Positions 18,899 through 50,500 of a DNA stretch of 64,000 nt are shown here, piece by piece. The DNA lies in contig NZ_SLXH01000001.1 of assembly GCF_004341365.1 (NCBI RefSeq), forward strand, positions 186,001 to 250,000, written 5' to 3'. The notes beneath the pieces were generated by a model that saw only the letters and a program-made list of their open reading frames with translations, was not told where the DNA came from and ran no database searches. Position numbers and translations under genes: made by a program. This DNA comes from Simplicispira metamorpha. Lineage in GTDB: Bacteria; Pseudomonadota; Gammaproteobacteria; Burkholderiales; Burkholderiaceae_C. Every line of letters starts with the position of its first letter. Position 1 is the first letter of the stretch.

Positions 18899-19645
18899 AT
18901 GCCCCGTTTTCACTGCCCCGTTGACCTGGCCACCGGCGTTGACATCGAACTGCCCGCAGGCGCCGCGCGCCATGTGCAGGTGCTGCGCCTGCAACCGGGT
19001 GACGCCATCACGCTGTTTGGCGACCGCGCCGGTGGCGAGTGGAGCGCCAGCGTCACCCACATGGGCCGCAGCAACGTGCGCGTGCAAATCGGCGTCCACC
19101 ACGCCATCGAGCGCGAGGCGCCGCGCGCCATCCACCTGCTGGCGGGCATCACCGCCAACGAGCGCATGGACTGGCTGGTAGAAAAAGCCACCGAACTGGG
19201 CGTGGCCAGCATCACGCCGCTGCTGGCCGAGCGCAGCGTGCTCAAGTTGAAGGGCGAGCGCGCCGACAAAAAACTCGCCCACTGGCAGGCCGTGGCCGTG
19301 GCCGCCTGCGAGCAGTGCGGACGCAACCGCGTGCCGCCCGTTCACCCGGCGCGCAGCCTGGCCGACTGGCTGGCAGCGCAGTCCACAGGCGCTGCGGAGG
19401 ACGCGGCGACCACGGCCATCGCCACACGCCTGCTGCTGTCGCTGCGCCCGGGCACACAGCCACTGCACGCCGCCGCCCCGGGCAGCGGCCCGGTGCTGTT
19501 CCTCTCCGGCCCGGAAGGCGGCCTCAGCAACGCCGAGGAAGACCTGGCCCTGCAACACGGCTTTGCCCCCGCCACGCTGGGTGCGCGCGTGCTGCGCGCC
19601 GAAACCGCGCCGCTGGCTGCGCTGGCCGCCCTGACGCTGGGTTGA
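18899..19645 (+). CDS. rsmE: 16S rRNA (uracil1498-N3)-methyltransferase
   Basis: 248 residues, SPOUT-class enzyme that methylates U1498 in the 30S decoding region. MPRFHCPVDL opens an OB-like N-domain. GITANERMDWLVEKATELGV, FLSGPEGGLSNAEEDLA and ARVLRAETAPLAALAAL are the knot-forming cofactor motifs. It follows amgK across repeat copy 5. Confidence 0.96.
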   Translation: MPRFHCPVDLATGVDIELPAGAARHVQVLRLQPGDAITLFGDRAGGEWSASVTHMGRSNVRVQIGVHHAIEREAPRAIHLLAGITANERMDWLVEKATELGVASITPLLAERSVLKLKGERADKKLAHWQAVAVAACEQCGRNRVPPVHPARSLADWLAAQSTGAAEDAATTAIATRLLLSLRPGTQPLHAAAPGSGPVLFLSGPEGGLSNAEEDLALQHGFAPATLGARVLRAETAPLAALAALTLG

Positions 19646-19803
19646 TCCGCCTGACGGCGCGCCAGCGTCGCCGCCCACCCGTTTCGGTTGCGCCCGCCTG
19701 CGCGGACACCGTGCCAGCCCCCCTCCACCAGCCCATAAAGAGGTCGGTATTTTCACAACTTGCCTATATCCTTGGCCGTGCAATTTCCCATGCACCAGAA
19801 ACC

Positions 19804-19818
19804 AAGGAGACAGCATTG
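19804..19818 (+). promoter_or_regulatory. Ribosome site and TTG start of the luxE-like gene
   Basis: AAGGAGA (19804-19810) is a near-perfect Shine-Dalgarno, 5 bases before TTG at 19816-19818. The first in-frame ATG is at 19855 with no comparable site, which decides for the TTG start. Confidence 0.7.
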
Positions 19819-20985
19819 CGTATTCCCTCTGACCTGCCTGATTCCCGGTCATCAATGCCGCCTGCTGGCGTGGTTGACTACTGCGCCCAGCGCACACCCT
19901 ACCTGCCAGAGGCTGACACCGATGCCCGCTTTGTCGCCGCCATGGCCGACATCACGCGCTGGCACCAGGAGCGCTCCCCCTGGTACCGCGCCTTTCTGGC
20001 CGCCAGTGGGATCGAGCCATCGGCACTGCGCACGGTGCAGGACGTGATGGCGCTGCCGCCCGTGCATGCCAACTTCTTCAAGGCCCATGAAGTGCTGTCG
20101 GTGCCCGAAAGCGCCATCGAAACACACCTGACCTCTTCGGGCACCACGGGTCAGAAATCACAAATGTTCTTCGACGCCTTCACCCTCGGCGGCGCACGGC
20201 GCATGGTGGACGACGTGATGGCCGCACGCGGCGTGGTCAGTGACGCTCCGGCCAATTACCTGGTCAACGCCTACGAGCCCTACGAGGGCCTGCGCGTAGG
20301 CACCTCCAACACCAACCAGTACCTGATGCGCTACGCACCGCCCGCCCGTACCTTCTGGTCACTGCGGGCGCTGGGGCCAGGCCAGCACGAGTTCGATGCC
20401 TTCGGCGTTCTGGCCACGCTGGCCGACTACGCCCAGGACAGCGTGCCCACGCGCATCATCGGCTTCCCGGCCTTTTTGCACTTCGCGCTGCGGCGCATGG
20501 CACAAACCGGTGCCCCGCCACTGCGCCTGCCACCGGGCAGCTGCGTCATCTTTGGTGGGGGCTGGAAAGGGCATGCCGACCAGGCCATTTCGCGCGAAGC
20601 CCTGCACCGCGATATCACCCACTGGCTGGGTATCCCGTCCGAGCGCATCGTCGAGACCTTCGGGGCGGTCGAGCACAGCATCCCTTACGTGGATTGCCAC
20701 CAGCACCACCTGCATGTGCCCACCTGGTCGCGCGTGGTGGTGCGCGACGTGCGCACCCTGGCGCCGGTGCCCGACGGTACACCCGGCTTCCTGTCTTTTC
20801 TCTCGCCCTATATCACCTCGGTGCCCGCCCACAGCGTCGTCATGGGCGACTTGGCCGTGCGCCACCCCGGCGGCAGTTGCACCTGCGGCCTGCCATCGCC
20901 CTGGTTTGAAGTGCTGGGCCGCGCTGGCACCTCTTCCAACAAGAGCTGCGCCGCTGCCGCCGCCGAGCTGCTGCCCACCGCCTGA
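19816..20985 (+). CDS. LuxE-like acyl-protein synthetase
   Basis: 389 residues from a TTG start. Member of the LuxE/PaaK adenylating family. The phosphate-binding loop is SSGTTGQKSQMFFD near residue 112, with IFGGGWKGH and the ETFGAVEHSIPY region further on. LuxE activates fatty acids as acyl-AMP and passes the acyl group to a cysteine near its own C-terminus. Here Cys378 lies 12 residues from the end (SSNKSCAAAAA), a comparable place. First gene of a four-gene operon, 23 bases before the LuxC fusion. No luxA, luxB or luxD is present. Confidence 0.75.
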   Translation: MRIPSDLPDSRSSMPPAGVVDYCAQRTPYLPEADTDARFVAAMADITRWHQERSPWYRAFLAASGIEPSALRTVQDVMALPPVHANFFKAHEVLSVPESAIETHLTSSGTTGQKSQMFFDAFTLGGARRMVDDVMAARGVVSDAPANYLVNAYEPYEGLRVGTSNTNQYLMRYAPPARTFWSLRALGPGQHEFDAFGVLATLADYAQDSVPTRIIGFPAFLHFALRRMAQTGAPPLRLPPGSCVIFGGGWKGHADQAISREALHRDITHWLGIPSERIVETFGAVEHSIPYVDCHQHHLHVPTWSRVVVRDVRTLAPVPDGTPGFLSFLSPYITSVPAHSVVMGDLAVRHPGGSCTCGLPSPWFEVLGRAGTSSNKSCAAAAAELLPTA

Positions 20986-21008
20986 GCCGCCCCCACCCAA
21001 GGAAACCC

Positions 21009-23543
21009 ATGGACATTTCAAGCTCCCCTGCCGCGATCGCACCGCATTTCTGGTTTGGCCGCTGGGTGGACGATGCCGCACTGCCCCACGCCCTGGAGCA
21101 CCTGGCCGCGCATCTGGACGCCACCCTGGCCCGCGCCTTCCCCTTCGATGACCTGTTGAGCGCCTGCGCCGCCCTGGCAGAAGACCTGCGCCACGCGCGC
21201 GGCGCTTTCCAGGCACTGCATGCCCAGGCCTGCCGCAGCGCCACCCCGGAGGATGCGCGCGCAATGCTCGCAGCCATCGCCGCAATGCTGCAACGCGATG
21301 CGCTCCAAGAAAAACTGCGCTCCGAACTGGGCACCCAGCGCCCCGGTGTGCTGGAGCGCCGCTACCCTGGCCGCCAGTACGAGGCCTGGATGCCTGCGGG
21401 CTGCGTGGTGCATGTGGCCCCCTCCAATGTGTTCACCGTGGCCGCGATGGGCATGGTCGAAGGTTTGCTGGCAGGCAACCTCAACGTGGTCAAGGCCAGT
21501 GCGCGCGATGGCGACTTCGCGCCGCTGTTTGCCCAGGCCCTGGCTGCACACGATCCGGGCGGGCGACTGGCCGACTACATGGCAGTGCTGCGCCTGCCAT
21601 CGAGCGACCAGGCACTGCTGCAACGGCTGTTTGCCCACGCTGACGTGATTTCTGCCTGGGGCGGCGAAAAGGCCGTGGCCGCCGTGCGCGCCAGCGCCCC
21701 GGCCCACACCCGCGTCGTCGCTTGGGGGCACAAGGTGTCTTTCGGCTATCTGGCGGCCGAATGCCTGGACGACCCCGAGGCCCTGGACGGCTTCGCGCGC
21801 GATATCTGCCGGCTCGACCAGCAAGCCTGCTCCAGCCCCCAAACGCTGCTGGCAGAAACCGATGGCCCGGGGCTGGACGCGCTGGCTCAGCGCCTGGCAC
21901 AGGCCCTGGCCCGCATCGCCCCGACCATTGCCGGGCACCACCCGGACACCGCCGAACAAGCGGAAATCACCACGGCAGTGAGCGTGGCGCGGGCCGAGGA
22001 GGCCCTGCAACTGACCCGGGTCATCGAAGCAGCAGACGGCGGCTGGCGCATCCTGCTCGACCGCCGCCCGGGCCTGCGGCCTTCGCCGCTGTACCGCACC
22101 ATCTGGCTCAAGAGCGTGCAGCGTGAGCACCTGGGCGCGGCCCTGCGCCCCATGCGCCCCTGGCTGCAAACCTGCGGCCTGGCCACGGGCCTGGCCAGCG
22201 CGGCGTCCTTGGCGCGCAGCCTGCTGTCAGCCGGTGTCAGTCGCATCACCCGCCCCGGCGAGATGATCGACAGCTACCTGGGTGCGCCGCACGACGGCGT
22301 ATATGCATTGCAGCACCTGGCCCGGAGGGTCTCGGTGGATGGCCCGCCCGCCCTGGCCTGTGTGGGCAGTCTGGATGCGCTGGAGCCGCCAGCGGCGCTG
22401 CGACCACCCGCTGTGCCGGTGATGGACAAAGCCGCCTTCCAAGCCCTGTCCCTGGCGCATGACGATCCCTTGACTGGCCTGGTGGTGCGCAGCGGCGGCT
22501 CCAGCGGCCAGGTGGCCTACTCCACCTTCCGCTGGGCCGACTACCACGAACAAATGGCCGTCACCGCCCATGGTTTGGTGGCTGCGGGCCTGGAGCCCGC
22601 ACGCGACCGGGTGATGAATCTGTTCGCGGCAGGGTATCTGTACGGCAGCTTCATCAGTTTCTGGACAATCCTGGAGCATCTGCGGGTGCGCCAATACCCC
22701 ATGGCGATGGTGCCCGAGTACGAGCAGATCGCCGAGCAAATCCTGGCACACCGCACCAACGTGCTGATCGGCATGACGCCGCACCTGCTGGGTCTTTTCA
22801 GATCCCAGGGGCAGCAGATCAAGGCGGCGGGCTGCGTGGAAAAGGTGTTTTACGGCGGCGAAGCCCTGTCGCCCGCACAGGTGCGATTTCTGCGCGAGGA
22901 GTGCGGTGTGCCGGTGGTGCGCTCAGTGGCCTATGGCTCCAACGATGCAGGCCCCATGGGTTACCAGTGCGAGCACAGCCAAGGCGGCGTACACCACCTG
23001 TTCACCCGTTTGCAGACGCTGGAGATCGCGCGCCTGGACGAAGACGCGCCCGTGCAAGGCACCGAGATCGGTCGCTTGCTGCTGACCTCGCGCGCACGCA
23101 GCGCTCCCACCATCGCGCGCTATGAAATCGGCGACACCGGCCGCTGGGTGCCGGGCCCCTGCCCCTGCGCACGCCAGGAGCCGCGCTTTGAACTCACTGG
23201 TCGGCTGGGCGACGTTTTCAAGGCCGGCGGCCCCTTGCTGAACTACAGCCGTTTTGTGGATTTTCTGAGCCAGCAGCTGGACTACGCCGGGCCGGTACAG
23301 CTGCACATCGACAGCGAGCCTGCCGCTACCGTGCTGCGCATCTGGGTGGACGACACCTTGCAGGCACCCACCACAGAGGCAGCAGAGCAACTGTGCGCCT
23401 GGTACGACGAATTGGGCGTGATCCGCACCTACCAGCTGCCGCTGATCGTGCGCCTGGAAATCCATCCCCACAGCGATTTCGTGCGTGTCAAGGCCAGCGG
23501 CAAATTGCGCCATGTGTGCGACCACCGCCTGGACGCCACCTGA
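21009..23543 (+). CDS. Fusion: LuxC-type acyl-CoA reductase plus PaaK/CapK-like adenylating domain
   Basis: 844 residues. Residues about 10-440 are a LuxC-family reductase: CVVHVAPSNVF near 132, GNLNVVKAS near 156, HKVSFGYLA near 241, and the catalytic Cys274 in RLDQQACSSPQ. LuxC reduces an acyl-enzyme or acyl-CoA to aldehyde with NADPH. Residues about 465-840 are an adenylate-forming domain of the phenylacetate-CoA ligase type: VRSGGSSGQVAYS at 493-505, FYGGEALSP, YGSNDAGPMGYQC and ARYEIGDTGRW. Separate LuxC proteins are about 480 residues, so this is a real fusion. It could couple acid activation with reduction in one chain. Confidence 0.82.
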   Translation: MDISSSPAAIAPHFWFGRWVDDAALPHALEHLAAHLDATLARAFPFDDLLSACAALAEDLRHARGAFQALHAQACRSATPEDARAMLAAIAAMLQRDALQEKLRSELGTQRPGVLERRYPGRQYEAWMPAGCVVHVAPSNVFTVAAMGMVEGLLAGNLNVVKASARDGDFAPLFAQALAAHDPGGRLADYMAVLRLPSSDQALLQRLFAHADVISAWGGEKAVAAVRASAPAHTRVVAWGHKVSFGYLAAECLDDPEALDGFARDICRLDQQACSSPQTLLAETDGPGLDALAQRLAQALARIAPTIAGHHPDTAEQAEITTAVSVARAEEALQLTRVIEAADGGWRILLDRRPGLRPSPLYRTIWLKSVQREHLGAALRPMRPWLQTCGLATGLASAASLARSLLSAGVSRITRPGEMIDSYLGAPHDGVYALQHLARRVSVDGPPALACVGSLDALEPPAALRPPAVPVMDKAAFQALSLAHDDPLTGLVVRSGGSSGQVAYSTFRWADYHEQMAVTAHGLVAAGLEPARDRVMNLFAAGYLYGSFISFWTILEHLRVRQYPMAMVPEYEQIAEQILAHRTNVLIGMTPHLLGLFRSQGQQIKAAGCVEKVFYGGEALSPAQVRFLREECGVPVVRSVAYGSNDAGPMGYQCEHSQGGVHHLFTRLQTLEIARLDEDAPVQGTEIGRLLLTSRARSAPTIARYEIGDTGRWVPGPCPCARQEPRFELTGRLGDVFKAGGPLLNYSRFVDFLSQQLDYAGPVQLHIDSEPAATVLRIWVDDTLQAPTTEAAEQLCAWYDELGVIRTYQLPLIVRLEIHPHSDFVRVKASGKLRHVCDHRLDAT

Positions 23544-23573
23544 CCCTTCCACCTATTTCCCCTCGCATCCACC

Positions 23574-24875
23574 ATGACCGACCTCTCCGCTGCCGCACCG
23601 CCGACCCAGGCCCAGCGCCTGGCCGCGCTGCTGTCCTTTGCACGCACCCACTCGCCTTTTTATCGCGACTTCTACGCCGCCGTGCCACCGGGCGAGTCCC
23701 GCCTGGACGCCTACCCGGTGCTCGACCACAAGGCCTTCTGGGCCGCCAACACGGTGCATGACAACCGCGTATTCACCGCCCCACTCACGGAAGGCATCAC
23801 TTTCAAGAGCGGCGGCACCACTGGCCAGCCCAAATACTCCGTATTCACCCACGCCGAATGGCGCGCATTCACCCAGGCATTCGGGGGCGGTATGCGCCGT
23901 GCTGGTCTGCGCGAAGGTGAGCGCATTGGCAACCTGTTCTATGCGGGCAAGCTGTATGCCTCATTCCTGTTCATTGGCCGCAGCATCGAAGCCGCTGGCG
24001 CAGGCATCTGCTACCCCATCGGAGGGGACGATGCCGAGGAAATCCTGGCCACTTGGCGCCAGTTCAGTCTGACCACCCTGGCGGGTGTGCCCACCACGCT
24101 GATGGCGCTGCTGGAGCGCCTCACGCCTGCCGACCGCGCAACGCTGCGCCTGGAAACCTTTCTGTATGGCGGTGAACCCATGTTTGCCGACCAGATCGCT
24201 GCGCTGCAGCAGGTGTTTCCCGGCTGCCAGGTGCGCTCGATCGGCGTGGCCGGTGTGGACTACGGCGAGCTGGGCTGGGTGCCCGCAGGCGCCGAACCCG
24301 GGGTGCACAGCGTGTTCGACGACAGCACCGTGCTGGAAATTCTGGAGGACGACAGCGACCAGCCGGTGCAAGGCACTGGCCAGGCAGGCCGGCTGGTGCT
24401 GACCAACCTGGAGCGGCGTCTGGTGCCCATCATTCGCTACCCGGTGGGGGACCGGGGCGCCTGGATGGATCCCCCGGGCACGCCCCAGCGGCGCTTTCGC
24501 CTGCTCGGGCGCACCGAGGAAGGCGCACGCATCGGCCCGATGACGCTGTATGTGGACGACATCCTGGCGCTGTTGGCCAGCCTGCAACGCCAGGGTACGG
24601 ACTGCACGGTGCAGTCTTTCCAACTGTGCATAGACCATGCCGAACGCCGCGACCGGCTGCGCCTGCGCTTGGCCGTCACCACACCACAAGCGCGCAGTGA
24701 GGCCGATGGCACCCGCGTGCGCGAGGCCCTGTATGCCCAGCGCCCCATGTTTGCAGACCTGATCGATGCAGGGGTGGTGCATCCGCTGGAAGTGGAATGG
24801 ACTACCCCCGCTGCCCTGCTCACCAACCCCCGTACCGGCAAGCTGCTGCGCGTGGTGGATCGCCGCCATGGCTGA
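23574..24875 (+). CDS. PaaK-like adenylate-forming ligase
   Basis: 433 residues, the size of phenylacetate-CoA ligases. HSPFYRDFYAAV near residue 26 is the usual N-terminal signature. FKSGGTTGQPKYSVFTH near 77 is the P-loop; FLYGGEPMF, VAGVDYGELGW and PIIRYPVGDRG are the later adenylation motifs. The acid it activates is unknown. It starts 30 bases after the LuxC fusion, and its last 8 bases overlap the next gene. It resembles the C-terminal half of the preceding fusion, so the two may be related by duplication. Confidence 0.78.
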   Translation: MTDLSAAAPPTQAQRLAALLSFARTHSPFYRDFYAAVPPGESRLDAYPVLDHKAFWAANTVHDNRVFTAPLTEGITFKSGGTTGQPKYSVFTHAEWRAFTQAFGGGMRRAGLREGERIGNLFYAGKLYASFLFIGRSIEAAGAGICYPIGGDDAEEILATWRQFSLTTLAGVPTTLMALLERLTPADRATLRLETFLYGGEPMFADQIAALQQVFPGCQVRSIGVAGVDYGELGWVPAGAEPGVHSVFDDSTVLEILEDDSDQPVQGTGQAGRLVLTNLERRLVPIIRYPVGDRGAWMDPPGTPQRRFRLLGRTEEGARIGPMTLYVDDILALLASLQRQGTDCTVQSFQLCIDHAERRDRLRLRLAVTTPQARSEADGTRVREALYAQRPMFADLIDAGVVHPLEVEWTTPAALLTNPRTGKLLRVVDRRHG

Positions 24876-26442
24876 CTGCTCCATGCCCACCCAGACCCCG
24901 ACGCCACAACCACCCGACCCCCGCCACGACTGGCTGCGCCTGAGCGTGCCTGCGCACCCACGCGCCATTGCCATCGTCCAGGCACTGCTGTCGGCCCAGG
25001 CCAGCACGCAGGGCTTCACACCCGCGCAACGCATGCGCATGCAAACCGCTGCCGAGGAAGCCCTGCTCACGGTGCTGCGCTGCGCCCATGACGACGAACC
25101 GGATGCCGATGCAGCCAGTGTGCTCGACATCCTGGTAGCGGTACTGCCCCCGGTGCTGCAATTGCGCATCACCGACCACGGACTGCCCTACGACCTGAGC
25201 CTGGTGCCGCAGTACGACCCAGCGCAGCCCGACAGCGCGGTACAGGACGATGCCGGTCTGTCCGCCTTCCTGATGCACCAATTGGTTGATCGCTCGCGGG
25301 TGCTCAACCTGGGTGCGCAAGGCCAGCATGTCGAACTCGAATGGTGGTTGCCCCAGCAAGGCGCCCTGACCACGCCAGTGGCCAACCACGCTGCGTCCGA
25401 TCACGCGGGCCCGACCCCGGTGGAGCCCGCTCCAGCGCCGACCACCCTGCGCCCGCTGGAGGCTGGCGATGCCATCCATCTGGCCCGCCTGATGTACCGC
25501 AGCTATGGCTACTCGTACGTCAACCCCGACATGTACATCGCCGAACGCATCCTCGCGCGCGGCCAAGATGGCCGCCTGACCTCCTGGGTGGCGCAGGCGC
25601 AGGACGCCGCTGGCGCCCCCATCGTCGGCCACATCGCACTCATGAAAGACCACCGCGATGACCCGGCCCTCGAAGTCGGCGCCGCCGTGGTGGCACCCGA
25701 CCAGCGCGGTGGCGGCCTGCTGGGCCAACTGCTGCAAACCGTGACCCAAGCCCTGGAGCAGCGCCCCGAGGCAGCGGCCTTCGTGCATGCCGTCACGCGC
25801 CATCCCTACACGCAAAAGACCTTTGGCCGACTGGGCTACCTGCCCACCGCACTGTTGCTGGCCTACACCCCGGCCAGCCTGCAATTTCGCAGCATTCCGG
25901 GCCAGGCATCGACCCAGCGGGGCAGCGTGTTCTATGCCTGCCGTCTGCTGCGCCCCGCCCCGCCAGTGGATGTCCACCTGCCACCCGATCTGGCCAGCCT
26001 GGTGCTGCCGCGCGCCGCCGACATCGGCATGGAGCTGCGGCCCCAGCCGCTGCGCCGGGATGCGCTGCAAGGTGCCACGCAGTTGCAGGTGCGCGTCGAG
26101 CCAGCACTCAACGCGGCCTTCGTGGTGGTGCGCCATGCCGGTGCTGACCTGGGCGAGGTGCTGCAACGCGCCCTGCGCCAGTGGTGTCGTCAGCAGGTCG
26201 ATGCGATTTACCTCAGCCTTGACCTGTGCGACCCCGGTACACCCGCAGCGTGGGAGTGTGCAGCCCCTTTGGGTTTTCTGCCCGCAGGGCTGACGCCCTA
26301 CATGCCCTGGCCCGCCACGCTGGCGCTGCAATACCTCAACAACCAATGGCTACAGGCCGACGCCATCGCCACCGTGGGCCCCGCAGCACAGGCACTGCGC
26401 GACCAAGTATTTGCCGCTTACCGGCAGCGTGAATGCCTTTGA
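24868..26442 (+). CDS. Fusion: degenerate RsbW-like ATPase domain plus GNAT acetyltransferase
   Basis: 524 residues. Residues about 20-160 look like an RsbW/SpoIIAB-type Bergerat domain: the AAEEALLTVLRCAH helix, then RITDHGLPYDLS near 100, then DDAGLSAFLMHQLVDRSR. The N-box Asn, a magnesium ligand in active kinases, appears to be Thr68. A Pro/Ala linker leads to a GNAT domain (about 193-335) with VVAPDQRGGGLLGQLL as the acetyl-CoA loop. Residues 340-524 are not assigned. Start ATG overlaps the preceding stop, so translation is coupled. It may sense a ligand or regulate the lux-like enzymes by acetylation; this is inference. Confidence 0.65.
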   Translation: MADCSMPTQTPTPQPPDPRHDWLRLSVPAHPRAIAIVQALLSAQASTQGFTPAQRMRMQTAAEEALLTVLRCAHDDEPDADAASVLDILVAVLPPVLQLRITDHGLPYDLSLVPQYDPAQPDSAVQDDAGLSAFLMHQLVDRSRVLNLGAQGQHVELEWWLPQQGALTTPVANHAASDHAGPTPVEPAPAPTTLRPLEAGDAIHLARLMYRSYGYSYVNPDMYIAERILARGQDGRLTSWVAQAQDAAGAPIVGHIALMKDHRDDPALEVGAAVVAPDQRGGGLLGQLLQTVTQALEQRPEAAAFVHAVTRHPYTQKTFGRLGYLPTALLLAYTPASLQFRSIPGQASTQRGSVFYACRLLRPAPPVDVHLPPDLASLVLPRAADIGMELRPQPLRRDALQGATQLQVRVEPALNAAFVVVRHAGADLGEVLQRALRQWCRQQVDAIYLSLDLCDPGTPAAWECAAPLGFLPAGLTPYMPWPATLALQYLNNQWLQADAIATVGPAAQALRDQVFAAYRQRECL

Positions 26443-26456
26443 GCCCACACAGCAAA

Positions 26457-26484
26457 AAGGCCGAACCCTTGCGGGTTCGGCCTT
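26457..26484 (-). terminator. Strong rho-independent terminator of the phasin gene
   Basis: A perfect 12-bp stem, AAGGCCGAACCC and GGGTTCGGCCTT, with loop TTGC. On the minus strand it is followed by TTTTT, so it terminates the phasin transcript. It lies between convergent genes; the plus side has no T-run but could still slow readthrough from the lux-like operon. Confidence 0.92.
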
Positions 26485-26520
26485 GGTGACTCTGGTGCGC
26501 AGGCCAGTGGCCTGCCGGGC

Positions 26521-27066
26521 TCAGACCTTGGCGGCGGGCTTGGCCGTCTTGACCGTCTTGGCCACCACGTCGGTCACGTGGTTTTGGGCTTGTGCCATGG
26601 CTTGCTGGGCAGCGGCCTGTGCCTGTGCAAAGGCTTGCTGGCCGGTGGTGGCAGCGTTCTTGAAGGCGGAAACAAAAGCTTCGCTGCCAGCAGGAACGTT
26701 TTGGGTCATGGACTCCACGGCGCTGCCCCAGGTCTTTTGCGCATCGGCCAGCTTGTCTTTGGACACCTTGGACAGCTCAGCGCCGGTTTGCGAGGTGATT
26801 TCGTAGACGCTGCGGCCATAGGCAGCGGCTTTTTCAGCCATGGGCTGGGCCATTTTGGTCTGGGCAGCCAGCACGTCTTCGGGGGTGGTGGCCGAGGCCA
26901 CTGCCTGGATCGAACCCAGGGAGTTTTCCAGCACCGACTTGGCGGTGGCCATGTTCAGTTCGGCCAGCTTTTCAAAGCCAGCGAAAGCGGTGGTGGCCAG
27001 GGCGGTCAGGTCAGCGGCGGCGTTTTTGCCAGCAGCGGCGAAGGCTTGGGTGTCGATTTTTTGCAT
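26521..27066 (-). CDS. phaP: Phasin family protein (PHA granule surface)
   Basis: 181 residues from the ATG at 27064-27066, chosen for GGAG 6 bases upstream and the MQKIDTQAFAAAGKNAAA start. Amphipathic, Ala/Gln/Lys-rich helices with the phasin pattern ALATTAFAGFEKLAELNMAT and the end AKTVKTAKPAAKV. Phasins coat polyhydroxyalkanoate granules and limit their size. It has its own promoter region with palindromes and a strong terminator, so it is probably a well-expressed single gene. Confidence 0.9.
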   Translation of the reverse strand: MQKIDTQAFAAAGKNAAADLTALATTAFAGFEKLAELNMATAKSVLENSLGSIQAVASATTPEDVLAAQTKMAQPMAEKAAAYGRSVYEITSQTGAELSKVSKDKLADAQKTWGSAVESMTQNVPAGSEAFVSAFKNAATTGQQAFAQAQAAAQQAMAQAQNHVTDVVAKTVKTAKPAAKV

Positions 27067-27708: not shown

Positions 27709-27758
27709 AAAAATCGGCTCCAGCCCTTGCGCAGCAAGCGCAAGCAGCTATCATTTTT
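27709..27758 (+). repeat. Dispersed palindromic repeat, copy 6 (reference copy)
   Basis: Best-preserved copy: AAAATCGGCTCCAGCCCTTG, CGCAGCAAGCGCAAGCAG, CTATCATTTTT. The family consensus is about 50 bp, with an A/T-rich GGCCTCCAGCGCTTGC arm and a GCAAGCGCNAGCAGCTATCA arm that pair into a hairpin. It abuts the end of the RND permease gene, whose TAA stop overlaps its edge. No transposase accompanies any copy in this window. Confidence 0.88.
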
Positions 27759-30700
27759 AAGTCATTGCATCGGCCACGGGCGCGCCGCGCAGTGCGTCCA
27801 GGCGGTGGCGGTAGGCCGCGTAGTACAGGGTGGGAATGACCACCAGCGTGAGCACGGTGGACACCGAGATGCCGAAGATCAGCGAGATCGCCAGCCCGTT
27901 GAAGATCGGGTCGTCGAGGATGAAGAAGGCGCCGAGCATGGCCGCCAGCCCGGTCAGCACGATGGGCTGGGCGCGCGTGATGGCCGACTGCACGATGGCG
28001 CGCTCGAACGGCACCCCGGCGCGCACTTGCAGGTTGATGAAGTCCACCAGCAGGATGGAGTTGCGCACGATGATCCCGGCCAGCGCGATCATGCCGATCA
28101 TGCTGGTGGCGGTGTACTGCGCGCCCAGCAGTGCGTGGCCCGGCATGACGCCGATGATGGTCAGCGGAATGGGCGCCATGATGATCAGCGGCGTCAGGTA
28201 GCTGCCAAACTGCGCCACCACCAGCAGGTAGATCAGGATCAGCCCCACGCCGTAGGCGGCGCCCATGTCGCGGAAGGTCTCGTAGGTGATTTGCCACTCG
28301 CCGTCCCATTTGAGGGCGTAGCCGCGCCAGGCGTCCTGCGGCGGGCGGATGAAGTACTCCTGCATCTGGCCGCCGTCGGGCATGGGCAGTTGGGCGATGT
28401 CGCCGCGCATCTGGAACATGCCGTAGAGCGGGCTGTCCACGTGGCCCGCCATGTCGGCGACGACGTAGTTCACCGGCAGCAAATCCTTGTGGTGGATGGG
28501 CTGCTCGCGCACGGTGTCGCTCACCGTCACCAGCTCACGGATCGGCACCAGGGCGCCGCTGGCGGCGCGCACCGTCAGTTGCAGCAGGGCAGCCAAATCG
28601 CCGTGCTGCTGCGGCGGCAGTTGCAGCAGGGCGGGCGCGGGGTATTTGCTCTGGTCGTGCAGGTACGTGGCGGCCTCGCCCGCCAGCCCGGCGCGCAGCG
28701 TGCCCACGATGGCCTGCTGCGGCACGCCCAGCATGGCGGCCTTGCGCCTATCGACCAACAGCAAGGTGCGCGGCGCGCTGGCAATGCTGCTGTCGTCCAC
28801 ATCGACCACGCCAGGGGTTTTGTCGAACACCGCGCGCACGGCCTTGGCGACCTGCTGGCGGCCCTCGGCCTCGGGGCCATAAATCTCGGCCACGATGGGC
28901 GCCAGCACCGGCGGGCCGGGCGGCACTTCGACCACTTTCACGTTGGCGCCCAGGTTCCGGCCAATGGCTTGCAACGCCGGGCGCACGCGCGTGGCAATGG
29001 CGTGGCTCTGGTCTTTGCGCTGCGATTTGTCCACCAGGTTGACCTGGATGTCGCCCACCTCGCCACCGGCGCGCAGGTCGTACTGGCGCACCAGGCCGTT
29101 GAAGTTGATGGGCGCGGCGGTGCCGGCGTAGGCTTGGTAGTCGGTCACTTCGGGCACGGTGGCCAGGTGCGCGCCCAGGGCGTGCAACACGGCGGCGGTC
29201 TGCTCCACCGGGGTGCCTGCGGGCATGTCCACCACCACCTGGAACTCGGACTTGTTGTCGAACGGCAGCATCTTCAGCAGCACCAGCCCGGCCGCAGGCA
29301 GCGCCACCGACAGCGCAATCAGCCCGGCAATGCCCAGGCCCAGCAGGCGGCGGTTGCGCGTGCCGCGTTTTTCGTCGAGCAGCGGCGTGAAGATGCGCGT
29401 GAACAGCGGCGTGATCTTGCCTGCCATGCCGTGCTGCGCCGGGGCGTGGCTGTCGGCGTGCGACGGGTCGGCGCCGCCTGCGCTGGCGTGGCTGGCCGAC
29501 ACGTCCCGCATCCACAGCCGCGCCAGCCAGGGCGTGACGACGAAGGCAATCGCCAGGGAGAGCACCATGCCCATGCTGGCGTTGATGGGGATGGGCGCCA
29601 TGTACGGCCCCATCAGCCCCGAGACAAAAGCCATGGGCAGCAGCGCGGCAATCACCGTCAGCGTGGCCAGGATGGTCGGCCCGCCGACCTCATCGACCGC
29701 GCCGGGGATGATCTGCGCCAGCGTTTTGCCGGGGTACAGCTGCTGGTGGCGGTGGATGTTCTCGACCACCACGATGGCATCGTCCACCAGAATGCCGATG
29801 GAAAAAATCAGCGCAAACAGCGACACCCGGTTGAGCGTGAAGCCCCAGGCCCACGAGGCAAACAGCGTGGCCGTGAGCGTCAGCACCACCGCCGTGCCGA
29901 CGATGGCCGCCTCGCGCCGCCCCAGCGCGATGAACACCAGCGCCACCACCGAGGCGGTGGCAAACAGCAGTTTCTGGATCAGCTTTTGCGCCTTGTCGTT
30001 GGCCGTGGCGCCGTAGTTGCGCGTTTCGGCCACCTGCATGTCCGCCGGGATGACGGTGTTTTTGAGCGCCTCGACCCACGCCATCACGGCGTTGGCCACG
30101 TCGATGGCGTTTTCGCCGGGCTTCTTGGTGATGGCCAGGGTGACGGCGGGGTATTCCGCCGCCTTGTCGCCCGCCGTGCCGTGCCAGACGTAGCGGCTGG
30201 GTGGCGGTGCGCCATCGCGCACGCTGGCCACGTCCGACAGGAACACCGGCTTGCCCGCGCGCACGCCCACCACCAGCTCGGCCACCTCGGCGGCGTTGGC
30301 CAGGAACGGCCCGGACTCGATGGCCACGGCGCGGTTGCCGCCCAGCAGCTCGCCCACGGGCAGACCGAGGTTGGCCGATTGCAGCGCGCGGCGCAGGTCG
30401 TCCACGGTGACGCCCGCGCCCGCCATGCGCGCGGCGTCCATCTCGACCATGACGGCGCGGCCCGGGCCGCCGATGGTGTGGACGGTGCGGGTGCCGGGCA
30501 CGCGCTTCAAGTCCACCTCGACGCTGTGGGCCACGCGCTCCAGATCAAAAGCGCCGGTCTGCGGATTCGGGCTGAACAGCGTCAGCGAGACGATGGGCAC
30601 GTCGTCGATGCCCTTGGGCTTGACCAGCGGCGGCTGCACGCCCAGGCCCTGGGGCAGCCAGTCGGCATTGGAGTTGACCGTGTCGTACAGCCGCACCAGC

Positions 30701-31047
30701 GCCTCGGTGCGCGGCACACCCACCTTGAACTGCACCGTGAGCACGGCCACGCCGGGGCGCGACAGCGACATCACATGCTCGGTGCCGGTGATTTGCGACA
30801 GCACCTGCTCGGCGGGGATGGCCACCATCTGCTCCACGTCGCGCACGCTGGCGCCGGGGAACGGGATGATGACGTTGGCCATGGTGACGTTGATCTGCGG
30901 CTCTTCTTCGCGCGGCGTGACCAGCACGGCAAAGGCGCCCAACAGCAGCGCCAGCAGCGCCAGCAACGGCGTGATCTGCGCCCCCTGAAAAAACGCCGCG
31001 ATGCGGCCCGAAACGCCCAAGGTCTGGCGGGGTGGAATGGAACTCAT
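27757..31047 (-). CDS. RND efflux permease (AcrB/HAE-type)
   Basis: 1096 residues from the ATG at 31045-31047, slightly longer than the usual 1030-1060. Inner-membrane proton-drug antiporter subunit. The first helix near residue 25 is followed by the pore domain. The proton-relay pair sits in TM4, FSIGILVDDAIVVVENIHRH near residue 400. A His/Ala/Ser-rich cytoplasmic insertion (HASAGGADPSHADSHAP) precedes the second half. GIIVRNSILLVDFINLQ marks the late repeat. It follows its adaptor by 10 bases. No outer-membrane channel is encoded nearby. Confidence 0.95.
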   Translation of the reverse strand: MSSIPPRQTLGVSGRIAAFFQGAQITPLLALLALLLGAFAVLVTPREEEPQINVTMANVIIPFPGASVRDVEQMVAIPAEQVLSQITGTEHVMSLSRPGVAVLTVQFKVGVPRTEALVRLYDTVNSNADWLPQGLGVQPPLVKPKGIDDVPIVSLTLFSPNPQTGAFDLERVAHSVEVDLKRVPGTRTVHTIGGPGRAVMVEMDAARMAGAGVTVDDLRRALQSANLGLPVGELLGGNRAVAIESGPFLANAAEVAELVVGVRAGKPVFLSDVASVRDGAPPPSRYVWHGTAGDKAAEYPAVTLAITKKPGENAIDVANAVMAWVEALKNTVIPADMQVAETRNYGATANDKAQKLIQKLLFATASVVALVFIALGRREAAIVGTAVVLTLTATLFASWAWGFTLNRVSLFALIFSIGILVDDAIVVVENIHRHQQLYPGKTLAQIIPGAVDEVGGPTILATLTVIAALLPMAFVSGLMGPYMAPIPINASMGMVLSLAIAFVVTPWLARLWMRDVSASHASAGGADPSHADSHAPAQHGMAGKITPLFTRIFTPLLDEKRGTRNRRLLGLGIAGLIALSVALPAAGLVLLKMLPFDNKSEFQVVVDMPAGTPVEQTAAVLHALGAHLATVPEVTDYQAYAGTAAPINFNGLVRQYDLRAGGEVGDIQVNLVDKSQRKDQSHAIATRVRPALQAIGRNLGANVKVVEVPPGPPVLAPIVAEIYGPEAEGRQQVAKAVRAVFDKTPGVVDVDDSSIASAPRTLLLVDRRKAAMLGVPQQAIVGTLRAGLAGEAATYLHDQSKYPAPALLQLPPQQHGDLAALLQLTVRAASGALVPIRELVTVSDTVREQPIHHKDLLPVNYVVADMAGHVDSPLYGMFQMRGDIAQLPMPDGGQMQEYFIRPPQDAWRGYALKWDGEWQITYETFRDMGAAYGVGLILIYLLVVAQFGSYLTPLIIMAPIPLTIIGVMPGHALLGAQYTATSMIGMIALAGIIVRNSILLVDFINLQVRAGVPFERAIVQSAITRAQPIVLTGLAAMLGAFFILDDPIFNGLAISLIFGISVSTVLTLVVIPTLYYAAYRHRLDALRGAPVADAMT

Positions 31048-31057
31048 GGCCGGGCCC

Positions 31058-32179
31058 TTATTGCGCGCGCGTGGCCGCTTGCGGATCGGCAATCACCTGT
31101 TCGCCCGGCGCCACGCCGGTCAGCACCTCGACGCGGTCGCCATCGACGCGGCCCAGGCGCACCTGGCGCAGCAGGGGCTTGCCGCCTTCGCCCTGCACGT
31201 ACACGCCGGTCATCTCGGCGCGGCGCACGATGGACTGGAGCGGCACCGTCACGCGCTGGCCCGCCGCGCTGGCGCCCGTGCCCGCCACCGGCAGCCACAG
31301 GCGGGCAAACATGCCGGGCGCTGCGCCGCTCAGGCCCGCAGGCAGGTCGGCACGCACTTGCTGGGTGTGCGTGGCCGCGTCCACCGTGGGCAGGCGCTGC
31401 ACGCGTGTGGGCTGGGGCCACTGCTGCGCGGCGGGTAGGCCCGGCAGCTCGACGCGCACGACCTCACTGCTGGCACTGTGGCCAGCCTTGCCACTGTCGC
31501 CTGCCACGCCCGTGGCCTGCGCCGCGCTGGCTGCGCCCAGCCACACCGACTGCGCCACCGACTGTGGCACCGCCGCCGTCACGCGCAGCGCGCTGGGGTC
31601 GTACAAGGTGAGCAGCGCGCGCCCGGGCAGGGCCATGTCGCCCAGTTGCACCGGCACCTCGGCCACCACACCCGCATACGGAGCGCGCACCGTGTGCAGG
31701 CCCGTCTGTGTGCGCGCCGCGCCCGCCTGCGCCACCTGCGCGGCCACCTGGGCGCGTGTGGCCTTGAACTCGGACTCGGCCCGCTCCAGCGCGGCCTGGC
31801 TGATGTATTTTTGCTGGTAGAGCTGCTGCTGGCGGCCGTACTCGCGCGTGGCCACCTCCAGCGCAGCGCGGGCGGCCAGCACCTGGGCGTCGCTGGCGGC
31901 AGCACTTTGGTCGGCAGTGCGCGCATCAATGCGCAGCAGCAACTGGCCCGCCTGCACCCGGTCGCCCGCCTTCACGGCCAGCTCGACCACGGCGCCGCTG
32001 ACCTGGGCGGCGACCACGGTCTGGCGCACGGCCTCGACCACGCCGTCAAAGCCCGCGCGGCCTTGCGAGGCGGCGGCCTGTGCAGGCACCACGGCCAGCT
32101 CGGCAGGCGCTGCGGCGGCAGCCAGCGAGACCGGCAGCGCAACGGCCAAGGCGATGGCAAAAGGACGAAGGAGAAACAT
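31058..32179 (-). CDS. RND efflux periplasmic adaptor (membrane fusion protein)
   Basis: 373 residues from the ATG at 32177-32179, which has GGAG close upstream and opens a signal peptide (FAIALAVALPVSLAAAAAP). The lipoyl halves are at VVAAQVSGAVVELAVKAGDRV and TVRAPYAGVVAEVPVQLGD, separated by an alpha-helical hairpin (RAALEVATREYGRQQQLYQQ). The C-terminal beta-barrel and membrane-proximal domains follow. It links the permease to an outer-membrane channel. First gene of the two-gene operon. Confidence 0.93.
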   Translation of the reverse strand: MFLLRPFAIALAVALPVSLAAAAAPAELAVVPAQAAASQGRAGFDGVVEAVRQTVVAAQVSGAVVELAVKAGDRVQAGQLLLRIDARTADQSAAASDAQVLAARAALEVATREYGRQQQLYQQKYISQAALERAESEFKATRAQVAAQVAQAGAARTQTGLHTVRAPYAGVVAEVPVQLGDMALPGRALLTLYDPSALRVTAAVPQSVAQSVWLGAASAAQATGVAGDSGKAGHSASSEVVRVELPGLPAAQQWPQPTRVQRLPTVDAATHTQQVRADLPAGLSGAAPGMFARLWLPVAGTGASAAGQRVTVPLQSIVRRAEMTGVYVQGEGGKPLLRQVRLGRVDGDRVEVLTGVAPGEQVIADPQAATRAQ

Positions 32180-32257
32180 GGGCAGTCTTTCAAAACAGGC
32201 GCGTGCCACCGGCAACGGCGTGTTCACGGTCTTGCGGGGTGGCAGGGCATGGCGGGT

Positions 32258-32286
32258 ATTATTTGCATGAATAGTTAAATAGTCAA
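32258..32286 (-). promoter_or_regulatory. Near-consensus promoter of the RND operon
   Basis: On the minus strand TTGACT (32281-32286), exactly 17 bases and AATAAT (32258-32263) match the sigma-70 hexamers at 5 of 6 positions each. The surrounding 50 bases are strikingly AT-rich for this genome. The leader to the adaptor ATG would be about 70 bases. Confidence 0.7.
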
Positions 32287-32289
32287 TTA

Positions 32290-32303
32290 GTTGATTTATC
32301 AAC
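32290..32303. promoter_or_regulatory. 14-bp operator-like palindrome beside the RND promoter
   Basis: GTTGATTTATCAAC is a perfect palindrome ending 3 bases before the -35 box. An extra TCAA half-site at 32283-32286 overlaps the -35. The half-site spacing fits a TetR or MarR repressor better than FNR, which needs TTGAT-N4-ATCAA. No regulator gene is adjacent; the site lies between the efflux operon and the divergent MFS gene and could serve both. Confidence 0.5.
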
Positions 32304-32412
32304 ATCGCCCTGATGGCGGTAGGCTCTCGGGCATATCGCTACAGTGCCAGGGCCCTTGGCTGGCGGGCTGTGCCTGCGGCCCTCCTCCACACCCTTCATT
32401 TTTTTGCTGCCC

Positions 32413-47543: not shown

Positions 47544-50500
47544 TCACCCCAGCGCTTCAGGCACGGGCATGGGTGCCAGCCCCACCAGACCGGCGGGGCC
47601 GCCGTCGCTGGGCAGGAAGCGGTCGTGGTACTCCTGGGACTGTACGAATGCGTCAATGGCCCCCAGCACATCGCCCTGGTTGTTGAGCACATGGAGCCAG
47701 TGTTCATACCCGCTCTGGTCTGGCGTGCGCCCCAGCAGGCCTACGTAGAACAGTGTCACGCTGACTTCCTCGCGCATCAGTTCCTGGTATTCGCTCGATT
47801 GGGCAAACCCGGCCAATGCCTCGCCGCGCGTGGTGCCGCCAGCCAGCTGGCCCAGCCAGTAGGCCTTGCCGGGAGCGTCAGGCAACCGGCCCAGCACGTT
47901 CTGGTACAGCGTGTCGAGGAAGCCCGCGTTGTCCAGCGCCCCGTACTGGCGCTGGAATTCGCTGCTGTCGGCAAAGCCTTGGGCCACTTGCTCCAGGCTC
48001 TGGCCTTGGTTGAGCATTTGCTCCATCCAGTGGGTCATGCCCGCTTCGTCCGGGATGCGCTCAAAGGCGGCAAAGTACAGGCGGGCCAGTGCGCCAGCAT
48101 GGGTCTGGAACTCGGACGAGCCGAGAAAAGCGTTGGCCACTTCAGCGCGGCTTTGCGCGCCACTGTCGAGAATCTCTCGCCAGTGCGTCAGCCCGGTCTC
48201 TTCAGCCTCGCGGAACAGCGTGTCGCGGTACAGCTGCATGGCGTAGAGCTTGGTGCTGCCAAAGACGTCGTTGTCCTTGACGCCTACGGTCAGGCCATGG
48301 GCTGCCTCCAGGGCGTCGGGGAACTGGTCATGGTCGCTATCGACTGGTGGGGGCACGAGCGCCATTTTTCCGGGGGCGCCGGGGTCGGTGATGACGCCGT
48401 CGGCTTTGCCGTCCAGGTCGAACTGGCCACCGTCCTGGATGACAAAGTCCAAGCGGGTTTTGCCATGCTCGGTGACCACGCGCCCGCCGTTGGCCGCACT
48501 GGCCAGGTTGACCCAGGTGCCACTGGCGTCTTGTTTGTAGTAGCCGTCAATGTCCAGGGCACCGTCCAGGTAGAGGCTGAAGGTTTCGGTAGCCCCTGCC
48601 GTATCGGCTTTGGCCGTGAAACTGAGCAGGCCCAGCGGCGTGCTCAAGCCCTCGGGCAGGTCTGCGGGCGCGTCTTTCTGGCCGATGCTGGTGATCTTGG
48701 CGTTGCCCGCCTGGGCACTGACTTTGCCATCCTGGCTGCCAACCACCAGGGTCACTGGCGTCTGAGGCGCTTGCGGGTTGCTGCTGACGCGGTCGGTCTG
48801 GCGCAAGTTCAGCGACGTTACCTGCGATTGCTCACTGTCTTTGATGCCGTCGCCATTGCCGTCCCCAGCGACCACTGGGCCACCGGGGCGCGAGGGAATG
48901 CCCGGGACGCTGCCCTCTTCTTCAGCAGAAACACCATCCCCATCATCGGGTGGCGATGCGGCAGCCACCGAGATACGGAAGGTGTCTGTCACCGTGCCGC
49001 CGTTACCGTCGCTGGCGATGACATCAACGCTGACAGCGCCGACGTTGCTGTGAGCCGGTGTGCCGCTGAAAGTGCGGGTGGCCGCGTTGAAGTGGAGCCA
49101 GTTGGGCAGCGTACCGCCCCCAGCCAGTTGCGCGCTGTAGGTGAGCGTGTCGCCGTCCACGTCAGCAAAGCTGTTGGCCGCAAACTGGAAGTTGAAGGCC
49201 GCATCTTGCTTGGCGTTCTGGTCAGGCACTGCGTTGACCACTGTGGGCGCATCGTTTACCGCCGTGATGTTCACCGTGGTGCTGCCCGCCGCAGTCAAGG
49301 CCCCGCCGCTGCCCTGGCTGCCGGTGTTGCCGTCGCTGAAGCTCCAGCCGATCTGCACGCTGGCCGGGGGGGCGTTGGACGTGTTGGCGTAGCCGATGCT
49401 CGACAGCACTTCATTGACCCGCGCCTGGGTGGCGCTGGCGTTGAAGGTGATGGTCAGCCTGCCGCCGGTGTTAGTCACGGTGCCCACCGTGGTGCTCGAG
49501 AGCACCGCGTTGCCGCCGGTGAAGGCCAGGTTGCCCAGCGCGCTGAACACGTCTTCTGCGGCGCGGCCCCCTGAGCGCGCCAGCGTGACGCTGGCGCCGC
49601 TGTAGTTGCCCAGGCCGCCGTTCAGGGCAGCCAACTCGGCATCGAACACCGCTACCGAGGCGTCCAGCGCAATGGCGCTGGCATTCTCGGTGTAGCTAGG
49701 TGCGCCGTCGAGGTTGCTGAAGGCTGGGGCGTTGTTGACCCCAGCAGCAGCGCTCAGGTGGTAAGTCCCCGTCACCGCCGCCGCTACGCCGTCGCTCACG
49801 CTGACGCCGATGCTGGCCGCACCAGCGGCGCTGGCGGTAAAGGTGGCACCAGCGATGGCGGCATTGAGGGTGGCAGCGGTGCCGCTCAGTTGGATGCCCG
49901 CCGTGGTGGTGTCTGCATCTGTCAGCCCGTTGAGGGTGCCGTTGGTGGCCGTCAGCGTGACATTCAAGACGACACCCGCGCCATCGGCATCGCTCACGGC
50001 AAAGTCTGCAAGCGCTGCAGCCGTCCCTGCGGTTACCGCTTGCGCGGTGCCCGGCAGACCACTGATGGTGGGCGCATCGTTCACCGCCGTGATATTCACC
50101 GTGGTGCTGCCCGCCGCTGCCAAGGCCCCGCCGCTGCCCTGGCTGCCGGTGTTGCCGTCGCTGAAGCGCCAGTCCACCTGCACGCTGGTGGGCGGGTTGT
50201 GGCTGGTGTTCTGGTAGGTCAGCGATTGCAGCGCACCGTTGACGATGGCTTGGGTGGCGGCATGGTTGAAGGTGATGGCCAGGGTGCCGCCCGTCTGGGT
50301 GAATGTGCCGATGGTCGTGCCGCTCCACACCACGTTGCTGCCGCTGAACGTGAGGCTGCCGCTGGCGCCAAACAGGTCGTCGGTGCTGGCGCCGCCGCTG
50401 CGGCCCAGGGTCAGGCTGGCGCCATCGTAGTGGCCCTGGGCGGCCAGGTCAGCGTCCAGCACATGGGCACCGGGCTCCAGCAGCACGGCGCTGGCGTCTT

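Follow-up and report, generated by a model that had tools for sequence, protein, structure and literature searches.

A recurring LuxE, LuxC-PaaK, PaaK and GNAT gene set that may make leupeptin-type peptide aldehydes

What might a bacterium make with the acid-activating and acid-reducing enzymes known from bacterial light production when no luciferase is recognized beside them? This question is raised by four co-directional plus-strand genes at positions 19816-26442 of a 64,000-nucleotide stretch of the Simplicispira metamorpha genome (contig NZ_SLXH01000001.1 of a 3.78 Mb assembly in 68 contigs; hereafter "the window", from whose first letter we count). They encode a LuxE-type acyl-protein synthetase, a LuxC-type acyl reductase fused to a PaaK-like adenylation domain (LuxC::PaaK), a stand-alone PaaK-like ATP-dependent ligase, and a protein joining an HATPase_c_2 domain to a GNAT acyltransferase domain (gene 4). 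This combination is not peculiar to the window's genome: the core of LuxC::PaaK beside LuxE, PaaK and GNAT recurs at 14 loci in Pseudomonadota and Actinomycetota. By analogy, and at a probability of roughly 0.5, we propose that the operon encodes a small pathway free of nonribosomal peptide synthetases, in which a short peptide acid with an N-acyl group is built and then reduced at its carboxyl end to give an aldehyde like leupeptin. A sequence-only reading of the locus had predicted an aldehyde or acyl adduct from an unknown acid; acid activation plus acyl reduction still stands as the predicted chemistry, and gene content together with one related cluster points to an N-acyl peptide acid as the most likely substrate.

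Domains and conserved residues of the cassette

The first three genes are set apart by 23 and 30 bases and the last two overlap by 8, exactly as the sequence-only reading had it. The LuxE gene (19816-20985, 389 amino acids) has a TTG start that is shared by its closest relative, from a Giesbergeria metagenome-assembled genome, and an AAGGAG motif ends 6 bases upstream of it. Its product scores well above the Pfam cut-off for LuxE (PF04443, 6.5e-33 over residues 41-383; 114.6 bits vs 24.9), and its acyl-accepting Cys378 (codon 20947-20949) aligns with the C-terminal cysteine of LuxE in 7xc6, the LuxC-LuxE reductase of luminous bacteria. Gene 2 (21009-23543, 844 amino acids) opens with a LuxC domain (residues 79-440, 21243-22328) that matches PF05893 at 1.1e-90 (304.9 bits vs a cut-off of 21) and whose Cys274 (codon 21828-21830, in LDQQACSSPQ) aligns with DQQACFSTQ of 7xc6. 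For the luminescence enzymes, the accessible part of PMC8301110 gives the acyl sites as Cys364 of LuxE and Cys286 of LuxC, the latter in YDQQACFSTQ. The window proteins thus belong to the same families as the luminous reductase with both acyl-cysteines aligned, but they differ from it in the PaaK domain fused to LuxC and in their surroundings, with no luciferase or LuxD among the identified flanking genes (luxA, luxB and luxD were not searched genome-wide). Against the NCBIfam models of the luminescence enzymes, the two proteins also fall far under the cut-offs (82.7 vs 550 bits and 88.3 vs 750 bits). By these neighbors and scores the genes are not part of a luminescence lux operon of luxA and luxB with luxCDE, in line with the earlier remark that luxA, luxB and luxD are absent.

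The remainder of gene 2 (about residues 470-842, 22416-23534) is a PaaK-like domain with an A3 motif SGGSSG, an A7 motif GDTGRW and a C-terminal SGK lysine, Lys832 (23502-23504). It matches Pfam AMP-binding (2.1e-4 over residues 532-652; 20.6 bits vs a cut-off of 29.9) and the NCBIfam model of the DVU_1553-family ligase (5.9e-17) below the cut-offs of both, and a solved phenylacetate-CoA ligase structure by profile comparison at 9.3e-17. Gene 3 (23574-24875, 433 amino acids) matches AMP-binding at 3.3e-9 and has its terminal lysine at Lys423 (24840-24842); both units combine phenylacetate-CoA ligase homology with the A3, A7 and A8 motifs and the terminal lysine of PaaK-type ligases. Gene 4 (24868-26442, 524 amino acids), which overlaps the PaaK gene, contains matches to HATPase_c_2 (2.2e-9, residues 27-159) and Acetyltransf_1 (1e-5). 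All five domain types expected from the letters alone were therefore recovered by Pfam (AMP-binding in gene 2 under its cut-off), and acid activation by LuxE and two PaaK-like units followed by acyl reduction is supported as the predicted chemistry by family matches and the kept acyl-cysteines.

The residues on which this chemistry would depend are conserved wherever they were inspected, that is in 13 cassettes comprising 11 alignment rows and two enterobacteria-like copies, with Salmonella 94-0093 left out. The LuxE acyl-cysteine and LuxC QQACSS are present in all 13, as is the terminal SGK/TGK lysine of both PaaK units, and the 11 aligned cassettes keep the P-loop-like A3 motif and the A7 aspartate in all three adenylation units. 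Since these residues and motifs are kept, each cassette is predicted to perform three separate ATP-dependent activations and one reduction. Both acyl-cysteines are also present in three LuxE-LuxC pairs without PaaK. Structure predictions for the proteins of gene 4 and gene 2, each aligned only with its Giesbergeria homologue, reached mean pLDDT values of 34.4 and 30.9 and were not used.

Recurrence and horizontal movement

The survey of gene neighborhoods that the sequence-only reading had set as its own test turned out in its favor. Counting each strain once, the 14 loci are the window, L008, L019 (G196), L015 (G275), L016 (G231), L017 (G220), L018 (G472), L020, L021, L022, L023, L024, L116 (G1143) and L117 (G1466), carried by Comamonadaceae, other families of the same order, two enterobacteria-like genomes, conjugative plasmids of Salmonella, and plasmids of Streptomyces. 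LuxE and a stand-alone PaaK accompany LuxC::PaaK in the same cluster at every one of them, and a GNAT gene does so at 13, the exception being G231, where the contig ends just past PaaK. The gene order is LuxE, LuxC::PaaK, PaaK, GNAT in Pseudomonadota and PaaK, MFS, GNAT, LuxE, LuxC::PaaK in the three Streptomyces. An intact MFS transporter gene belongs to the cluster at half of the loci (G275, G231, G220, G472 and the three Streptomyces), and both Salmonella plasmids have a 121-amino-acid MFS remnant before LuxE. The two MFS proteins scanned, one from Burkholderiales and one from Streptomyces, fall into different NCBIfam groups (MdfA type and 2A0121, respectively, both under cut-off). No relative of either MFS type was seen in L116 and L117. 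G196 offers only a 28% MFS match, which lies on the opposite strand 2.5 kb past the operon, and the L008 record starts 53 bases before LuxE, so that the presence of an MFS gene cannot be judged there.

Local identity to the window's LuxE, LuxC::PaaK and PaaK is highest in Giesbergeria (82%, 81% and 78%) and G196 (71%, 63% and 70%), followed by Streptomyces (53-55%, 43-46% and 45-46%), four other genomes of the order (48-49%, 39-41% and 35-39%), the two enterobacteria-like genomes (48%, 41% and 39%) and Salmonella (46%, 38% and 35%). One of the 26 congeners searched, G863, has the cassette on a contig of 9010 bases, and its matches are those of Giesbergeria record L008. The spread is patchy. 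A search at 1e-50 detected LuxC::PaaK in 3 of 60 relatives (2 of these among the 26 congeners), and further searches did so in 5 of 300 genomes of the order at 1e-30 with the window's own included, in the window's own alone among 369 genomes of the class at 1e-80, in 2 of 10 genomes of the family of carrier G220, and in 2 of 394 genomes at 1e-60 from the order sampled around G629. Gene 4 has matches in 3 of 200 genomes of the family, one of them a weak GNAT-only match. Among the 72,556 plasmid records of PLSDB, 46 match the fusion protein and 6 do so over at least 80% of its length, namely two records of one Streptantibioticus cattleyicolor strain, two Streptomyces and two Salmonella enterica; a plasmid search with the gene 4 protein gave no match at 1e-5. 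Complete E. coli genomes hold no near match to the Salmonella cassette, and 59 pattern matches in viral contigs included no relative. No description of the gene set was found in the open full-text literature, subscription journals lying outside that search.

Trees of LuxE, LuxC::PaaK and PaaK, built for 11 of the 14 loci (94-0093 was left out as a near copy, and G1143 and G1466 were found later), recover the same three groups. The window clade has 100/100 support in all three trees, as does a group joining the four other genomes of the order with Salmonella, and the Streptomyces group has 94/96 (LuxE), 100/100 (LuxC::PaaK) and 100/99 (PaaK). Branching within the group that includes Salmonella differs between trees with modest support, and rooting gave no order of the three lineages, the outgroups and a Streptomyces europaeiscabiei row (see below) sitting on long branches. 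Because the main groups agree between trees and carriers are rare, we read the core as moving as a cassette that is gained and lost. The operon is absent from all eight congeners whose RsmE region was fetched; in seven of these RsmE adjoins the same APH gene as in the window (the eighth piece ends before that point), and the three with the CMD gene in view have other genes between RsmE and CMD, once a methylase-restriction pair. The Giesbergeria copy lacks the window's downstream neighbors, and the stretches fetched from the Salmonella plasmids, which are typed as conjugative, also hold transposase and recombinase genes. The cassette has 47% GC in G1143 and G1466, within stretches of 41-44%. 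From sequence similarity we regard G1143 and its congener G1466 as enterobacteria: the G1143 stretch closes with a gene, called pckA in two further records that match it, whose sequence shares about 79% identity with E. coli DNA.

On the Salmonella plasmids the cassette is in decay, with the MFS remnant at L023:8257-8622 and L024:8257-8622 and, in strain 94-0093, a GNAT frame split in two pieces (L024:13536-14419). In two further Salmonella plasmid records some 495 bases from the front part of luxE are present at 90% identity, and a Serratia plasmid holds 176 bases of the cassette tail at 93%. A different PaaK-based cluster on a plasmid of Streptomyces sp. NBC_01343 (L081:4788-9399) encodes a 721-amino-acid protein whose C-terminal part is 29% identical to the PaaK part of the fusion, with an MFS gene after it and methylaspartate mutase and aspartate kinase genes near. 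The single LuxE-bearing record of a phage collection (MT835565.1, an unverified deposit labeled "Bacteriophage sp.", a gut scaffold from human feces) contains a LuxE-LuxC-YhhN trio at L074:9917-13064; considered as a relative of the cassette, it was judged a different cluster for its lack of the PaaK fusion, and the scaffold is probably bacterial DNA.

A proposed route to a peptide aldehyde

By domain content and kept motifs, the gene set would be able to carry out one N-acylation, two ligations and one acid reduction. In the pathway that we propose, the GNAT part of gene 4 would N-acylate an amino acid from an acyl-CoA, the stand-alone PaaK would adenylate this N-acyl amino acid and join it to a second one, and the PaaK domain of LuxC::PaaK would adenylate the product and add the last residue, probably arginine or another basic amino acid. 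By homology, LuxE would then adenylate the peptide acid and load it onto the Cys378 present in its sequence, from which the acyl group would pass to Cys274 of LuxC and be reduced with NAD(P)H to the aldehyde. We propose that the aldehyde is exported, at the seven loci with an intact MFS gene by the pump encoded there, and it would act as an inhibitor of serine or cysteine proteases, either the cell's own or those of its neighbors. We infer the order of steps, the substrates, the product and its function from the gene content: one N-acyltransferase, two ligases, an acid reductase, a frequent exporter and no recurring precursor genes would fit an N-acyl dipeptidyl or tripeptidyl aldehyde made from common amino acids.

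The archetype of such peptide aldehydes is leupeptin, acetyl-Leu-Leu-argininal, and the enzyme roles needed to make it can be paired one-for-one with those that we assign to the cassette genes. Three enzymes of Streptomyces were reportedly described in old work: one that forms acetyl-leucine, a leupeptin acid synthetase and a leupeptin acid reductase. Li et al. (Angew. Chem. 2020) are said to have found that Photorhabdus, Xenorhabdus and Klebsiella make leupeptins with ligases and accessory enzymes that are expressed discretely. The cassette resembles this pathway also in its carriers, which include enterobacteria-like genomes, Salmonella plasmids and Streptomyces; as differences, the window copy has an HATPase domain on its GNAT and no MFS gene in the operon. 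A beta-lactone cluster named "ioc/leu" (IOC), considered as a leupeptin cluster, is something else according to the accessible part of PMC9177418, a paper that cites the leupeptin gene work of Li et al.

A plasmid of S. europaeiscabiei (NZ_CP109155.1, L079:6065-10716) carries a related cluster in which MNIO/DUF692, LuxE and LuxC genes are followed by a 53-amino-acid open reading frame with four (D/N)(E/D)FPFR units spaced 36-39 bases apart. Its LuxE is 45% and its LuxC, which has no PaaK domain, 44% identical to the window's; YcaO and MFS genes lie nearby on the opposite strand and an MBL-fold gene is also near. Such a repeat beside LuxE-LuxC suggests arginine-ended peptide acids as substrates, as cleavage after each arginine would yield peptides with C-terminal arginine for LuxE-LuxC to reduce. 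The cluster is possibly of a kind with those for ribosomally synthesized and post-translationally modified peptides, making ribosomal peptide argininals, and thus hints at ribosomally made peptide aldehydes. We found no title on these in the literature, for which no dedicated search was made, and the accessible part of the MNIO survey PMC12452194 does not contain the word "aldehyde". The comparison with leupeptin was reached only after this repeat peptide had come into view; earlier readings had been a flagellin lipid-glycan, a grixazone-type pathway and a generic natural product.

Several observations weigh against a leupeptin-type pathway. The S. europaeiscabiei cluster is a relative only: its LuxC has no PaaK, and it sits on a long branch in the trees. 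No relative of either cassette MFS type was seen in window positions 10000-36000. PaaK-family enzymes are best known as CoA ligases, and peptide ligation is a predicted role for them here; the likeness to the leupeptin genes is one of enzyme roles. The window GNAT has diverged to 24-26% identity with the proteins of three other cassettes and matches the Streptomyces GNATs weakly by profile (probability 38%). On the other hand, GNATs of other cassettes match models of acetyltransferases for amino acids or N-terminal amines, though weakly and under cut-off: one from Salmonella matches RimI (1e-7) and an ArgA-type model (6.7e-5), and one from Streptomyces the beta-lysine enzyme AblB (5.3e-6). The GNAT region of gene 4 (about residues 186-477, 25423-26298) is homologous to the GNATs of other proteobacterial cassettes by profile-profile comparison (E 2.1e-14), the Streptomyces and proteobacterial types match each other at E 1.7e-8, and a YG..Y motif opens all 12 cassette GNAT proteins looked at.

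If a leupeptin-type product is indeed made, protease-inhibitor aldehydes would be the output of a compact, horizontally moving cassette that uses the aldehyde enzymes of light production and reaches Comamonadaceae, Streptomyces plasmids and conjugative plasmids of Salmonella. LuxC::PaaK beside LuxE, PaaK and GNAT would then be a sequence signature for finding such clusters.

Alternative explanations and the surroundings of the operon

An unlikely alternative is that activation and reduction turn an aryl acid, or some other carboxylic acid that is no peptide, into an aldehyde building block, with the PaaK units and GNAT then forming an ester or amide. Precedent comes from grixazone biosynthesis, where GriC and GriD activate 3-amino-4-hydroxybenzoate with ATP and reduce it to the aldehyde as a two-protein system outside luminescence, as described in the accessible part of PMC10179220; the likeness is one of description, and the window has extra ligases and a GNAT. 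The PaaK domain of gene 2 also matches a BagE/FevW synthetase model, weakly and under cut-off (1e-9). However, no gene for the supply of an aromatic precursor is among the recurring genes, and the flanking genes that were identified, a minority of them, are not common between lineages, so the substrate should be a common metabolite.

It is likewise doubtful that regulation is the main task of gene 4, with its RsbW-like domain binding an anti-sigma-type partner or being switched by SpoIIE to control the acyltransferase or transcription. With the anti-sigma kinases RsbW and SpoIIAB this domain (24946-25344; Pfam and alignment with RsbW 6m36) has in common the HATPase_c_2 family, the N-box glutamate and G1- and G2-like stretches, and it matches RsbW at 5e-7. 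At 29.3 bits it stays far under the NCBIfam RsbW equivalog cut-off of 155, and gene 4 differs from these kinases in its fusion to GNAT and in a threonine, Thr68 (25069-25071), at the place of the N-box asparagine. In RsbW this asparagine binds Mg. It is lost in all three HATPase copies, with the glutamate kept, though another RsbW-like protein of the window's genome keeps it. G196 has a Cache-HAMP-SpoIIE phosphatase gene (L019:3212-5209) on the same strand that ends 107 bases before LuxE, and the window's genome encodes SpoIIE proteins besides its other RsbW-like protein elsewhere, but the window gives no tblastn hit for the SpoIIE protein of G196. The HATPase domain is present in only 3 of the 13 cassette GNATs, all of the window clade; its sequence has no tblastn match at E 0.01 in the 11 other cassette loci, G231 included, and Pfam finds no HATPase in the five GNATs of other cassettes that were scanned. 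As 10 of 13 do without it, the best reading of the GNAT is that of an enzyme of the pathway, with the HATPase part, going by this distribution, added in one lineage. Gene 4 does have the ATPase-like and acetyltransferase domains foreseen by the sequence-only reading, but the "built-in control" drawn from them found no support, which leaves that reading as a whole partly supported. It would be a long shot that the acyltransferase step of the Comamonadaceae version is gated by a domain descended from RsbW that is independent of ATP and has a partner-switching protein as its ligand, with a new peptide aldehyde as product; if true, an anti-sigma-type switch without a sigma factor would gate a biosynthetic enzyme at its first committed step.

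A possible second HATPase-GNAT fusion, a 476-amino-acid protein of G1049 (L078:8039-9469), was set aside: tblastn joined residues 16-492, phmmer backs 178-491 only, its N-terminal half compares with HATPase at 0.13 in phmmer, and Pfam names no domain in the protein. Going by these matches, we count it as related to gene 4 through its GNAT only, with a long N-terminal extension. One further tblastn run at 1e-5 gave no match for this protein, and the fetched 17 kb around its gene hold no LuxE or LuxC match.

Quite improbable is a role of LuxE-LuxC in making a fatty aldehyde or loading a fatty acyl group onto another acceptor, an activity like the one proposed for fatty-acid genes in flagellin glycosylation islands. 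In the accessible parts of PMC4875605 and PMC7874193, luxC and luxE homologues without luciferase, as in the window, occur in flagellin glycosylation islands of Enterobacteriaceae and Aeromonas, but they have ACP, FabG, ligase and sugar genes as neighbors there; the recurring set is without ACP, FabG or glycosyltransferase, and the low scores of the window proteins against the luminescence models also argue against fatty substrates. Least probable is a non-reducing LuxC whose cysteine relay hands the thioester to a PaaK-bound or amine acceptor to form an amide or ester. The fusion of PaaK directly behind LuxC in all 14 cassettes would suit such a transfer, but LuxC is full length and keeps its WGG, WGH(K/R).SF, acyl-cysteine and PHDG motifs in the 11 aligned rows (WGHRISI in the two enterobacteria-like copies), as expected of a working enzyme with a predicted NAD(P)H role for these residues.

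The identified genes around the operon are an APH family gene and RsmE upstream and phasin, CMD and RND pump genes downstream. A search of 19500-26700 found no sigma-70-like promoter. A 12-pair hairpin at 26457-26484 separates the operon from the convergent phasin gene. It has its T tail on the minus strand, which makes it a candidate terminator for the phasin gene and not, on this evidence, for the operon. Four hairpin-type sites were found against 3.2 expected. The GC content at third codon positions is 0.79-0.82 in the four operon genes compared to 0.84-0.92 in five of six other genes measured and 0.725 in the phasin gene, a difference too small to be taken as a sign of import. None of the four operon proteins matched a defense-system library at 0.001. 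Further downstream, RND efflux pump and membrane-fusion protein genes occupy 27757-32305 on the minus strand, and at 47544-54404, also on the minus strand, a 2286-amino-acid protein combines DUF4347, DUF5122 beta-propeller, putative Ig and DUF4214 domains and resembles a large protein that is secreted or displayed on the cell surface.

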